Source of the DNA: an uncultured Maribacter sp.
Lineage (GTDB): Bacteria > Bacteroidota > Bacteroidia > Flavobacteriales > Flavobacteriaceae
NCBI RefSeq assembly: GCF_947495965.1
Contig: NZ_CANMBB010000001.1
Coordinates: 585,728 to 649,727, forward strand
DNA length: 64,000 nucleotides
Direction of reading: 5' to 3'
Below the pieces are notes generated by a model. The model was not told where the DNA came from. It worked only from the letters and a program-made list of their open reading frames with translations, and searched no databases. The translations under genes and the position numbers were made by a program. Shown here piece by piece: positions 4,249-46,056 of this stretch; position 1 is the stretch's first letter; each line of letters opens with the position of its first letter.

Positions 4249-4674
4249 ATGAAAAAATTAAAAATTTTAGGACTATTATTTGCAATACTAACAATTGGCT
4301 GTAAAGCGCAAACAACAGAAAAAGAAGCTATAACAGAGGCTATAACAGCCTTTTCTAAAGCAGGAGACTCAAATGACGCTAATACATTGGACACACTTTT
4401 AGATACAAACTATAGGGTTGTAATGAATAGGCTTTTTGGAAGCAAAACCGTTAGCGTTGTTACCAAAGCAGAATATCTTAAAAAAATAAAAACAAAAGAA
4501 TGGGGAGGAGACTCTAGAGAACTTACAATTGAAAATATTGTAATTAACGGTACCGTTTCTAGTGCCAAAGTTACTTTTAAAGGAAAAAAAGCAACTATAG
4601 TTTCTATTCTAATTTTAGTTAAAAATGAAAAAGGAATTTGGAAACTTGTTAATGACACTCCTATTTTTAAATAA
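4249..4674 (+). CDS. NTF2-like lipoprotein
   Basis: A 141-residue exported protein. The N-terminus is a lipoprotein signal peptide ending ILTIGC, with the lipidated cysteine at residue 18. The rest resembles the NTF2/SnoaL-like fold with an N-terminal helix pair (EAITEAITAFSKAGDSNDAN, LDTLLDTNYRVV) and a C-terminal sheet ending GIWKLVNDTPIFK, typical of DUF4440-like or lumazine-binding-like proteins. It probably binds a small molecule at the outer membrane or in the periplasm; no catalytic residues can be assigned. An operator identical to that of the upstream marR gene lies before it. A bidirectional terminator follows. Confidence 0.75.
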   Translation: MKKLKILGLLFAILTIGCKAQTTEKEAITEAITAFSKAGDSNDANTLDTLLDTNYRVVMNRLFGSKTVSVVTKAEYLKKIKTKEWGGDSRELTIENIVINGTVSSAKVTFKGKKATIVSILILVKNEKGIWKLVNDTPIFK

Positions 4675-12340: not shown

Positions 12341-12421
12341 TATATTTGCACCCGCTTATAACTAAGCGAATTATAAAAGAATTAATAACCAAGGGTCGGG
12401 CACCCTACAAATTAATGTGAT
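12341..12421 (+). promoter_or_regulatory. rpsP promoter and structured leader
   Basis: TATATTTG at 12341-12348 is a good -7 element. The leader then contains two small hairpins: CGCTTA-taac-TAAGCG at 12353-12368 and AGGGT-cgggc-ACCCT at 12392-12406, the latter ending 15 bases before the S16 start codon. A roughly 70-base leader with hairpins before a ribosomal operon could be an autoregulatory site; this is inferred. Confidence 0.55.
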
Positions 12422-19273: not shown

Positions 19274-19590
19274 ATAAAAATAGATATTGCAAAATTCTAT
19301 ATTTATTCTCTAGCTACGGTAAGGATAGGTTTATTATTAAGTTATTACATTGTTAATGTATGTGTCCAAATGTTATTTTAAAGACACAAAAAAGGTTTAA
19401 AAACAAAACTGCAGGGCTACACAACAACTATTGCTTATTACGCAACAATACTTTTTTAAAAATAAAGACTACCAGTATATTTACCCTGTAATAAAAACGA
19501 AATAATAATTTTTCATTTTCATATAGTGTTCTCGTAAAAGAGCTTTGTCTTCATGGATAGAGCTCTTTTTAGTTTTACAAATGTCTGTTC
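19274..19590. other. gene-free stretch downstream of the molybdoenzyme
   Basis: It holds an RNA-like unit (19474-19579), its diverged upstream part from GCAGGG at 19411, and two weak inverted repeats: TACATT-gtt-AATGTA near 19345 and TGTGTC/GACACA around 19370-19390. No gene is visible. Confidence 0.5.
19474..19579 (+). ncRNA. candidate small RNA, unit 1 of a duplicated pair
   Basis: This 106-base unit matches 22018-22123 at all but four positions. It opens with TATATTTA (19476-19483), close to the -7 consensus, and ends just after a terminator-like hairpin AAAAGAGCT/AGCTCTTTT (19535-19567) with T-run. The predicted RNA is about 85-90 bases with no reading frame. Upstream DNA is only loosely similar to that of unit 2, so the conserved block coincides with the predicted transcript. 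Orientation is deduced from the T-run. Confidence 0.55.
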
Positions 19591-21897
19591 TTAATTTATA
19601 ACAGCTTTACTAATTTTTACTTTTACAGATTTACTAATAGGAGTTCTACTCTTATCTGCATATTGGTTATAAGGCACCACAATATTAGTTTCTGGATAAT
19701 ACGCTGCTATATTTCCTCTTGGAATTTTATAGGAAATTACTTTAAAGTTATTTGCAGTACGCTCCTTACCGTCATAATAGCTACTAATATTTACCACTTG
19801 TAGTTGAGATAATCCATGCTCTTTCATATCTTCTGGATTCATAAAAACAACTCTTCTTGCATTGTAAACCCCTCTATACCTATCATCTAAGCCATATATT
19901 GTAGTATTAAATTGGTCATGTGAACGTATGGTCATTAATAAAAATTCATCTTTTTCTAAATTATGGTCTGGCAATTTATTAATAGAAATTTGCGCTTTAC
20001 CATTAGGCAACATACTAAAATCTAATTCTCTTGCATTATGGGGTAAGTAATACCCTTTCCCTTTAGACCTTTCTTTAGTATTCTTATACCCTTTAATTAC
20101 TTGATCTATCTTGGTTCTTATAAGCTCATAATCGCTTGCCATTTTACGCCAAGGCACAGAGTGCGAATCTGTAAAATGAGTTGCAGCAATTTCTGCAATA
20201 ATTTCTGGCTCACTTTTAATGGTCCCTGAAGTAGGTTTTAAAATTCCCATAGATTGGCGAACTCTTCCCATACTATTCTCTACTGTAACATAACGTTGCA
20301 CACCATCTTTTATATCTTTTTCTGAACGACCAAAAGTTGGTAACAAAAGAGCTGTTTTACCAGTAACTAAATGCGTTCTATTTAACTTAGTACTTACTTG
20401 TACTGTTAAACTACATTGTTCTATTGCCTCTGCTGTATATTCTGTGTCTGATGCTGCCATTAAAAAGTTGCCTCCTAAACACATAAAAAACTTTGCTTTA
20501 CCCTCATGCATAGCATGAATAGCCTCTACCGTATCTAGCCCTTCTTCTGTAGGCGCATTAAATCCTAAATGCTCTTTAATACGCTTGTTTAACTCTAAGT
20601 CTACAAAGTGCATAATACCCACACTACGGTCTCCCTGCACATTACTATGGCCACGAACAGGGCATGTTCCTGTATTTGGTTTTCCTATTGCTCCTTTTAA
20701 CAACAGAATATTTACAAATTCTTTAATATTCTCTACGCCATTTTTATGTTGTGTAAGCCCCATTGCCCAGCAAATAATAATTTTAGAGTTGCTTGCTAGT
20801 AATTTTACTGTTTCTTCAATTTTTTCTTTGCTTATACCACTTAAGGTAAGTAACTCTTCTTCATTATAATTTTTTACATCAGCCAATAACGCATCATACC
20901 CTTGAGTATATTTTTCTATAAAAGCATGATCAAAAACACCTTTATTCAACTCATCTAAAATGGCTAATCTTTTAATCAACAACTTAGCAATAGCAATATC
21001 TTGATTAATTCTTACTTGTAAATGTATGTCTGCAATATCTTCTCCAGGCCCAAGAATACCTTTTAAATTTTGTGGATTTTTAAAGTTTACTAATCCCGCT
21101 TCTTCTAAAGGGTTTATACTAATAACCTTACCTCCGTTTTGTTTACATTTTTCTAATGCAGAAAGCATACGAGGATGGTTAGTACCTGGATTTTGTCCTA
21201 CAACCATAACTACCTCAGCTTCATAAAAATCTTCTAAAGTAGCCGAACCTTTTCCCATACCAAGTGTTTCTCCTAAAGCCACACCGCTAGATTCATGACA
21301 CATATTAGAACAGTCTGGCATATTATTAGTTCCTAGAGCTCTTGCAAACATGCCGTATAAGAAGGCAGCCTCATTACTAGAACGCCCTGAGGTATAAAAA
21401 ACAGCTTCGTCTGGAGAGTTTAATTTTTTTAATTCTTCTGAGATTAAAGCATAAGATTCTTCCCAAGTTATTGGTTCGTAATGCACACTGTTTGGTCTAA
21501 GAACCATTGGCTCTGTAATTCTTCCAAATTTATTTAATTGATAATCCGTAAGTTCTGAAAGTTTTTCTACAGAGTTTTCTTTAAAAAAAGAAGCATCTAT
21601 TTGTGATGAGGTAGCTTCATCAGCCAAAGCTTTTACACCATTCTCACAATACTCTGCAAAGCTAGACTGTTTTTCTGGTACTGGCCATGCACAGCTAGGG
21701 CACTCAAAACCTTTATCCTGATTCATTTGCAATAAAGCACCCATAGATTTAACTACACCCATTTCTTTAAAGCCATGCTTAAGAGCTTCTTTTACCCCTA
21801 ACATTCCTGCTGCTTTTTTCATAGGCTCTCCCAATTTTATATCTAAAAAATCTTGAGAACCTCTTATAGAAACCTTTCTTTTAAAACTTGATGCCAT
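19591..21897 (-). CDS. FdhF/YdeP-family molybdopterin oxidoreductase
   Basis: A 768-residue cytoplasmic protein of the YdeP branch of formate-dehydrogenase-like enzymes. The N-terminal cysteines CPSC...YC (about residues 67-86) are too few for a classic CxxCxxxC 4Fe-4S site. The molybdenum ligand position reads SNMCHESSGVALGETLGMG, cysteine replacing selenocysteine. Cofactor blocks include VVGQNPGTNHPRM and GTCPVRGHSNVQGDRS, and a C-terminal molydopterin-binding barrel begins LLMTIRSHDQFNTTIYG. E. coli YdeP is linked to acid resistance; the natural substrate is unknown. No fdhD or electron-transfer subunit is adjacent. It is bracketed by two copies of a 106-base RNA-like unit. Confidence 0.88.
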   Translation of the reverse strand: MASSFKRKVSIRGSQDFLDIKLGEPMKKAAGMLGVKEALKHGFKEMGVVKSMGALLQMNQDKGFECPSCAWPVPEKQSSFAEYCENGVKALADEATSSQIDASFFKENSVEKLSELTDYQLNKFGRITEPMVLRPNSVHYEPITWEESYALISEELKKLNSPDEAVFYTSGRSSNEAAFLYGMFARALGTNNMPDCSNMCHESSGVALGETLGMGKGSATLEDFYEAEVVMVVGQNPGTNHPRMLSALEKCKQNGGKVISINPLEEAGLVNFKNPQNLKGILGPGEDIADIHLQVRINQDIAIAKLLIKRLAILDELNKGVFDHAFIEKYTQGYDALLADVKNYNEEELLTLSGISKEKIEETVKLLASNSKIIICWAMGLTQHKNGVENIKEFVNILLLKGAIGKPNTGTCPVRGHSNVQGDRSVGIMHFVDLELNKRIKEHLGFNAPTEEGLDTVEAIHAMHEGKAKFFMCLGGNFLMAASDTEYTAEAIEQCSLTVQVSTKLNRTHLVTGKTALLLPTFGRSEKDIKDGVQRYVTVENSMGRVRQSMGILKPTSGTIKSEPEIIAEIAATHFTDSHSVPWRKMASDYELIRTKIDQVIKGYKNTKERSKGKGYYLPHNARELDFSMLPNGKAQISINKLPDHNLEKDEFLLMTIRSHDQFNTTIYGLDDRYRGVYNARRVVFMNPEDMKEHGLSQLQVVNISSYYDGKERTANNFKVISYKIPRGNIAAYYPETNIVVPYNQYADKSRTPISKSVKVKISKAVIN

Positions 21898-22017
21898 AAA
21901 ACCGTATAATTTATCCGCTTAAAATTGCTGCTTTTATTCACAAAAATCAAAAATAGCAGGGTTTACAACAAATTACTAGTCATACACATCATTTCTTTTA
22001 AAAAACAACACCTCTCT

Positions 22018-22123
22018 AGTATATTTACAGTGTAATAAAAACGAAATAATAATTTTTCATTTTCATATAGTGTTCTCGTAAAAGAGCTTTGTCTTATTGG
22101 ATAGAGCTCTTTTTAGTTTTACA
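22018..22123 (+). ncRNA. candidate small RNA, unit 2 of a duplicated pair
   Basis: Nearly identical to 19474-19579 (two neighbouring substitutions near the 5' end, two in the terminator loop). It has TATATTTA at 22020-22027 and hairpin AAAAGAGCT/AGCTCTTTT with T-run ending near 22115. It lies 121 bases upstream of the molybdoenzyme ATG, transcribed away from it. The diverged upstream part starts at GCAGGG 21956, as in unit 1. Confidence 0.55.
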
Positions 22124-45976: not shown

Positions 45977-46056
45977 GCTCGAGTGGCGGAACTGGTAGAC
46001 GCGCTGGATTCAAAATCCAGTTCTTCGGAGTGTGGGTTCGATTCCCACCTCGAGTA
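45977..46056 (+). tRNA. tRNA-Leu (anticodon CAA)
   Basis: An 80-base class II tRNA. Acceptor GCTCGAG pairs with CTCGAGT (one G-U), discriminator A. The anticodon stem CTGGA/TCCAG encloses TTCAAAA, so the anticodon is CAA, reading UUG. A short variable arm (TTCTTCGGAGTG region) and T-loop GGTTCGATTCC follow. No encoded CCA. Confidence 0.97.

Follow-up and report, generated by a model that had tools for sequence, protein, structure and literature searches.

The stretch analyzed here, referred to as the window, comprises 64,000 nucleotides from the genome of an uncultured Maribacter sp. (NCBI RefSeq assembly GCF_947495965.1, contig NZ_CANMBB010000001.1, forward-strand positions 585,728 to 649,727, or G000:C1:585728-649727, where G000 is the window's own genome). 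Two 106-base units, located on the plus strand at 19474-19579 and 22018-22123, bracket a gene of the FdhF/YdeP oxidoreductase family, and are considered below as genes of a putative small RNA (sRNA). A previous reading of this stretch from its letters alone (the sequence-only reading) had described the units as twins with four differences, which was exact, with the mismatches at positions 19485, 19486, 19552, and 19553. In a repeat search the pair was detected as a 148-nt direct repeat, 86% alike and 2544 nt apart. The ungapped comparison also agreed with the reported divergence of the bases after the units, which were the same at 19 of 61 positions. The 62 bases before the units, the same at 32 of 62 positions, had rightly been called similar but diverged; however, they are not a neutral flank but the promoter, which contains two repeats. 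The features of the two units and of the enclosed gene are listed below.

19418-19427, plus strand: distal box repeat of unit 1, TACACAACAA (model R2 match at 19418-19483; position weight matrix score of 46.3 at 19416)
19439-19448, plus strand: proximal box repeat of unit 1, TACGCAACAA, 21 bp past the distal repeat
19476-19483, plus strand: -7 box of unit 1, TATATTTA, of the form TAnnTTT[AG], with fixed spacing across the family
19488-19570, plus strand: predicted small RNA of unit 1, 83 nt, with predicted ends (model R1 match at G000:C1:605212-605298)
19509-19533, plus strand: conserved unpaired core of unit 1, TTTTTCATTTTCATATAGTGTTCTC, antisense to GAGAACACTATATGAAAATGAAAAA
19536-19570, plus strand: terminator hairpin and T-run of unit 1 (folding, covariation)
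21962-21971, plus strand: distal box repeat of unit 2, TTTACAACAA (model R2 match at 21961-22027; position weight matrix score of 39.7 at 21960)
21983-21992, plus strand: proximal box repeat of unit 2, TACACATCAT, 21 bp past the distal repeat (position weight matrix, R2)
22020-22027, plus strand: -7 box of unit 2, TATATTTA (R2 match)
22032-22114, plus strand: predicted small RNA of unit 2, 83 nt, with predicted ends (model R1 match at G000:C1:607756-607842)
22053-22077, plus strand: conserved unpaired core of unit 2, the same as in unit 1 (sequence, alignment A1)
22080-22114, plus strand: terminator hairpin and T-run of unit 2 (folding, covariation)
19591-21897, minus strand: FdhF/YdeP family oxidoreductase gene, between the units (TIGR01701, 846.5 bits, cut-off 582)

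The units were compared in a collection of 140 distinct units from 116 loci, drawn from loci L001 to L151, in which the core was exact in 127 units and had 1 to 6 mismatches in the other 13. The covariance model R1 was built from 81 of the collected units (alignment A1), and the +1 position of the predicted RNA was set from the position of the sigma-A box, given as -12 to -5 in the description of PMC9723704. Upstream of the TAnnTTT[AG] -7 box the units contain a tandem box, made up of a pair of TTCACAACAA-like repeats at a distance of 21 bp. When the units were aligned on the -7 box, the common sequences TWCACMACAA and TTCACAWCAATAATTT were seen at equivalent positions 21 bp apart, and the sequence CAWCA was located exactly 33 nt upstream of the -7 box in 115 of the 140 copies. 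The proximal repeat lies just upstream of the -33 region and continues into a TTT, which is located at the usual distance of -33. Thus, across the family, the units have a promoter of their own, in which a -7 box is preceded by an upstream box at a fixed distance. When the whole window was searched on both strands with the box profile, only the two unit sites scored above 18, and there were no sites in 4 Mb of order-3 random sequence. The two box profiles described below are both ungapped, and boxes with a one-base-longer spacer, such as that in L325, escape them.

In the predicted RNA a start near TGTAAT is followed by an A-rich variable stretch, the core, and the terminator. The 25-nt unpaired core reads UUUUUCAUUUUCAUAUAGUGUUCUC and is antisense to AUGAAAAUGAAAAA. 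Folding of the plus strand gave a 15-bp hairpin followed by a T-run in both units, with z values of -5.07 and -4.78, and none of 200 shuffled sequences was as good for either unit. In alignment A1, 98.0% of the terminator cells paired, while 81 cells were changed on both sides, as compared with 13.1 in shuffles (none of 500 reached the observed number) and at most 25 in slid controls, which shows that the hairpin and T-run are kept by covariation. At four terminator positions G-U pairs were present in 21 to 23 of the 81 rows. These pairs, which would be mismatches on the minus strand, fit only the plus strand. The core was invariant in all 81 rows of the alignment; however, this invariance is partly built in, because most of the rows were gathered by an exact 35-mer. 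Altered cores, found by a freer search in L215, L216, L217, L218, L221, L222, and L224, also limit the conclusion that the core is fixed. On the other hand, when 16 stretches with weaker R1 matches were inspected, seven units kept CATTTTCATATAGTGTTCTC exactly, and five of these (two in L212, and those in L220, L223, and L227) did so with clearly different terminator sequences. The core is also retained beside an unrelated terminator in L226.

The units are not confined to this locus. The window's own genome contains a third copy, 80% identical, at C2:210327-210428, and each of eight congeners has exactly three exact sites of the 22-nt core complement. The search of flavobacteria that had been proposed in the sequence-only reading returned 107 stretches of the genome contig collection with an exact 35-mer of the unit. 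Among the 80 of them that were listed, all but four had titles of flavobacterial genera or uncultured Flavobacteriaceae, the genera including Maribacter, Arenibacter, Zobellia, Cellulophaga, Euzebyella, Kriegella, Pricia, and Muriicola, while the exceptions were three titled Cytophaga sp. FL35 and one Bacteroidia bacterium. Model R1 matched 61 of 299 genomes of the family at E ≤ 0.01; in 49 of these genomes the best match was firm (E < 1e-5) and in 12 it was weak (E from 5e-5 to 0.009), and the firm genomes had one to five matches each among the matches listed. In an order-wide sample of 196 genomes, R1 had matches at E ≤ 1e-4 in five, each of which belongs to the same family. As judged from the aligned sequences, the comparison shows that the units are small-RNA genes with their own predicted promoter, a conserved unpaired core, and an intrinsic terminator on the plus strand. 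The proposal of two selected small-RNA genes is therefore upheld by the promoter, the unpaired core, the covarying terminator, and the spread of the units, while the third copy, the tandem box, the LytTR regulator described below, and the core antisense to translation starts had all been missed in that proposal.

The history of the pair was followed in six congeners. The sequences before the units were 60% alike within a genome, as compared with 75-78% between orthologues, and those after the units were 52% alike within a genome, as compared with 63-70% between orthologues. In contrast, the likeness of the unit amounted to 92% within a genome, to 91% and 89% for orthologues, and to 90% when both the genome and the position differed. 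Because the flanks had already diverged when the six species separated, with the unit remaining alike, the duplication that produced the pair is, on this evidence from sequences, older than the species, and the unit is apparently held by selection. These data agree with the earlier statement that this is not a recent DNA duplication, for which flanks as conserved as the unit would have been expected. In the same six genomes the variable 5′ part of the unit was 89% alike within genomes, versus 85% otherwise. This slightly higher likeness within genomes hints that gene conversion perhaps helped to keep the units alike.

The genes next to some of the units suggested which protein could activate them. 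At 10 of the 116 unit loci the gene of a 252-amino-acid response regulator is located 127-157 nt upstream of the unit on the same strand, and at nine loci the gene of a TPR histidine kinase is located downstream from it. Pfam assigned the domains Response_reg and LytTR to the former protein, and HisKA_2 and TPR to the latter, both in a relative's proteins and in the proteins encoded by the window's own genome. There, menA (TIGR00751, above cut-off) comes first, followed by the regulator gene, a box, the kinase gene, and a MenC-like gene (L233:560-2516, L331), the last of which reached 125 bits with TIGR01927, just below the cut-off of 130.55. A profile trained only on the promoters of the sRNAs of the present type (class A) found a box in the regulator-kinase gap of all eight congeners, and in 20 of the 23 further regulator loci, out of 26, that were parsed. 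With a second profile, at least one box was found within 1.5 kb at 46 of 51 regulator loci, as compared with 2 of 406 control segments and none in 4 Mb of random sequence, and the 80 boxes at the regulator loci were all on the regulator's strand, with none on the opposite strand. The distribution among genomes showed the same association. The regulator was present in 60 of the 299 genomes of the family (E ≤ 1e-50). All 49 genomes with firm RNA matches carry the cognate REC-LytTR regulator, while none of the 239 genomes without the regulator has a firm match.

The geometry of the box is consistent with this assignment. Sites of LytTR proteins are described as pairs of 9-11-nt repeats with a gap of 11-13 nt, without a common consensus (PMC4847170), and the repeats found here are 10 nt long, with 11 nt between them and 21 nt from start to start. 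LytTR repeats are also reported to lie just upstream of the -35 region and to serve autoregulation (PMC6193735). In Clostridioides difficile the response regulator RgaR activates the sRNA SpoZ, and the critical G residues of spoZ are given as -51 and -72, which is 21 bp apart (PMC10602386). The geometry of the box is the same as that of LytTR sites and of the SpoZ repeats. As described in that source, the RgaS-RgaR/SpoZ system resembles the present one in that a VirR-type regulator directly activates an sRNA through two direct repeats with a 21-bp phase (PMC10602386). The same group includes VirS-VirR with VR-RNA and AgrC-AgrA with RNAIII. RgaS-RgaR/SpoZ differs from the system considered here in belonging to Firmicutes, in its half-site, in the type of its kinase, and in having one RNA rather than one to five sibling copies; no sequence relation was seen, none having been tested for. 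A reading of the repeats as a Pho box was dropped because of their 21-bp phase and the co-occurrence with LytTR genes.

Several observations weigh against the assignment of the box to this regulator. The second profile was trained on 59 boxes, some of which came from about ten of the 51 loci tested with it. Five of the 51 regulator loci (L239, L257, L262, L263, and L355) are without a box, and at three of them (L239, L257, and L355) the regulators are 86-93% identical. The Fisher p value of the co-occurrence, 6.6e-46, ignores shared descent. Eleven genomes that carry the regulator, at 43-77% identity to the query, have no R1 match below 1e-5, although two of these genomes, G084 and G103 (L258 and L261), each carry four boxes in tandem behind their more distant LytTR regulator, and the small units that follow are diverged, have terminators, and lack the class A core. 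Eleven of the 12 genomes with weak matches lack the regulator, G283 being the one which has it, and the two weak-match loci that were inspected, L213 and L214, are without a box. Even with these points taken into account, it is strongly supported by the sequence comparisons that the box is a putative binding site of the REC-LytTR response regulator, which is encoded once per genome behind menA, and also that this regulator and the TPR-HisKA_2 kinase form a two-component system. The location of this system between menA and the MenC-like gene weakly hints that its signal could be respiratory or quinone-linked.

The sequence of the core suggested how the RNA could act. Flavobacteria are described as lacking Shine-Dalgarno sequences (PMC9723704). 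When the core was paired with 522 first-ATG starts, the mean duplex energy was best in the segment from -10 to +14, where it equaled -6.51, as compared with -5.42 ± 0.43 for 12 shuffles, while outside the start segment the pairing was no better than that of the shuffles. In the first test of start pairing, none of 60 shuffles reached the mean at starts and two of 60 reached the difference between starts and internal positions. Because the core complement reads AUGAAAAUGAAAAA, flavobacteria have no Shine-Dalgarno sequences, and the energy peak is at the start codon, we weakly favor the view that the RNA may act by pairing with translation starts. This view is weakened by the fact that the start preference was small, with strong duplexes making up a fraction (0.072) that falls inside the range of the shuffles (mean 0.059, maximum 0.108), and that the class B sequence described below showed no start preference. 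A full-length antisense target was rejected, because no site with one or two mismatches to the 22-nt core complement was found in the eight congeners. Similarly, a conserved target with the 15-mer TATGAAAATGAAAAA was not found. Outside the RNAs, the own genome has three perfect 15-nt sites, of which two coincide with gene starts and the third does not lead into a long frame; among the loci inspected, only the start of a 45-amino-acid lipoprotein recurred (G005). The starts of this lipoprotein gene and of a DUF2911 gene are candidate targets.

Overall, we consider it quite probable that the units are two of the three copies of a multicopy, trans-acting sRNA gene, which would be activated by the LytTR regulator and may pair with mRNA starts. 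In the proposed circuit, an active kinase would lead to the binding of phosphorylated regulator dimers to the two repeats, which would switch on all RNA copies together, and the box on the kinase gene would provide positive feedback. The core UUUUUCAUUUUCAUAUAGUGUUCUC would then pair with mRNA starts of the AUGAAAAUGAAAAA type, which encode MKMKK... and are typical of exported proteins, so that the start codon would be covered. In a phylum that lacks Shine-Dalgarno sequences, such covering could take the place of the anti-Shine-Dalgarno mode that is usual elsewhere. The small-RNA genes are confirmed to be real, under selection, and present in several copies, and their candidate activator is well supported; that they act on mRNA starts is a proposal open to testing.

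Four other explanations were considered. The one that competes most seriously, although we would sooner bet against it than for it, is that the RNA binds a protein or titrates other RNAs instead of covering start codons, as could be suggested by the length, U-richness, and unpaired state of the core, its divergence in class B relatives and distant units, and the failure to find a conserved target; against it stand the core itself, an unvarying sequence of 25 nt that can pair with a typical start region, and the peak of pairing at start codons. It is rather unlikely that the box belongs to another activator and that the LytTR genes are merely members of the same regulon. While such an activator could explain why boxes also precede the genes of a PAS histidine kinase and of an extracytoplasmic function (ECF) sigma factor, as well as a small frame next to an RpoD gene, it is at odds with the co-occurrence of regulator and RNA (49 of 49 versus 0 of 239), with the boxes inside the regulator-kinase gap, and with the LytTR-like geometry of the repeats.

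Two explanations remain. If the minus strand were the product, the unit could be a leader with a short peptide, MKMK..., and indeed, when read on the minus strand, 139 of the 140 copies start with ATGAAAATG. However, the frame varies in length from 6 to 41 amino acids and shows no conserved sequence past MKMK, while the promoter, the T-run, and the G-U pairs all favor the plus strand; the short peptide was rejected because there is no conserved frame, and we regard this explanation as very improbable. The presence of several, often paired, copies per genome could also be expected from a functionless mobile repeat or a recent duplication, which is the least credible of the explanations, given that the divergence of the flanks predates the separation of the six species whereas the unit remained similar, that the unit was kept across many genera, and that its terminator covaries.

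Boxes were also found elsewhere in the own genome with the profile and R2, in front of the following genes.

L327:1673-1740: box before the gene of a PAS histidine kinase
L326:2062-2129: box before the gene of an ECF sigma factor
L329:1731-1798: box before a short frame beside an RpoD gene
L328:1734-1801: box before a secreted-protein frame
L325:2186-2253: box before a 35-amino-acid frame

The PAS histidine kinase gene is also boxed in L063, and in the own genome a box precedes the kinase gene of the LytTR system itself. Since the box precedes kinases, a sigma factor, and other frames, it is taken, from its positions in the sequence, to mark a putative regulon of which the RNAs are only a part. 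In L324 of the own genome two near-identical boxes, at 2175-2241 and 4608-4674, are 2433 bp apart and each is followed by a ATATAGTGTTTTCCCGATAG-like sequence, reminiscent of the final part of the class A core.

The sibling RNAs fall into class A, with the core UUUUUCAUUUUCAU, class B, with CCCAAAUCUUAYCAUUU, and hybrids of the two, and arrays of up to four boxes are present beside the regulator. The class B units have the same tandem box, CCCAAATCTTAYCATTT, and their own AAAGGCTATGCA...GTATAGCCTTT-like terminator, and they are often located behind boxes beside the regulator. Their sites include L246, L250, L251, L252, L254, and L256, all in the regulator-kinase gap, and L078:6112-6179. Class B or hybrid units were seen in L216, L219, L226, and L249-L252, with A/B hybrids in L216, L219, and L226. 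It is conceivable, although we hold it only tentatively, that the LytTR system drives diversified sibling RNAs that silence the mRNAs of exported proteins by covering the start codon, in an "anti-start" mode that would suit bacteria without Shine-Dalgarno sequences.

The oxidoreductase gene between the units of the window is one of several neighbors. The pair brackets an FdhF gene in six of eight congeners, where the FdhF proteins are 87-100% identical. In the other two, G002 and G004 (L027 and L028), a single unit adjoins the syntenic phosphoesterase gene, no FdhF is located there, and the genes on the opposite side of the unit are different, while the best FdhF in these genomes is 65% identical and located elsewhere. 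The sequence-only reading had anticipated strains with one unit left and the enzyme missing, and this arrangement exists; however, given the 65%-identical FdhF elsewhere and the different far-side genes, it does not follow that the enzyme gene was deleted through recombination of the two repeats. Over the 116 unit loci, which are redundant, so that neighbor counts are non-independent, FdhF adjoins a unit in 22, including 12 from the window's genus, while other frequent neighbors are the genes of MenB (26), a serine hydrolase-like protein (24), and a phosphoenolpyruvate carboxylase-like protein (22), the last of which scored below the NCBIfam cut-off. FdhF as the general reason for the units was rejected because they are found at several other loci. 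Hence, the RNA is not tied to FdhF, which is a neighbor and one context among several.

Comparison with known RNAs did not reveal a previous description. At Rfam gathering scores the whole window matched three families only, none of them at the units. Flavo-1 and 6S RNA, with which the sequence-only reading had suggested a comparison, matched neither at these scores nor among the eight sub-threshold matches at E ≤ 10. The best sub-threshold match, PyrR, with 24.9 bits against a threshold of 54, was rejected. No description of this RNA was found in the open-licence PubMed Central literature, which does not prove its absence from print. Among described systems, several sibling sRNAs under one two-component system are also reported for the LisRK-controlled LhrC family of Listeria (PMC4132741). 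Whereas LhrC pairs with Shine-Dalgarno regions, the flavobacterial RNA has a core that is antisense to the start codon; moreover, LisR is not known to be of the LytTR type. Another flavobacterial trans-acting sRNA is Rfp18 of Flavobacterium psychrophilum, which is reported to affect secreted proteases (PMC9723704). By its description, Rfp18 is set apart from the present RNA, because it pairs through its third stem-loop and is conserved in the genus Flavobacterium (PMC9723704).

Only a small number of regulatory RNAs have been understood in Bacteroidota; Shine-Dalgarno pairing is absent there, so that the common anti-Shine-Dalgarno mode is not an option. For the RNA family described here a candidate activator can be named, the promoter code is clear, the short fixed core would predict targets, and there are up to five copies per genome among the matches listed, so that the circuit is open to ordinary knock-outs. 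The box also offers a candidate DNA target for the LytTR regulator located in the menaquinone gene cluster. Elsewhere in the window, an S16-Flavobacteria ribosomal protein leader (RF03138) was found above its gathering score at 12381-12416, and tRNAs were found at 2484-2557 on the minus strand and at 45977-46056 on the plus strand.

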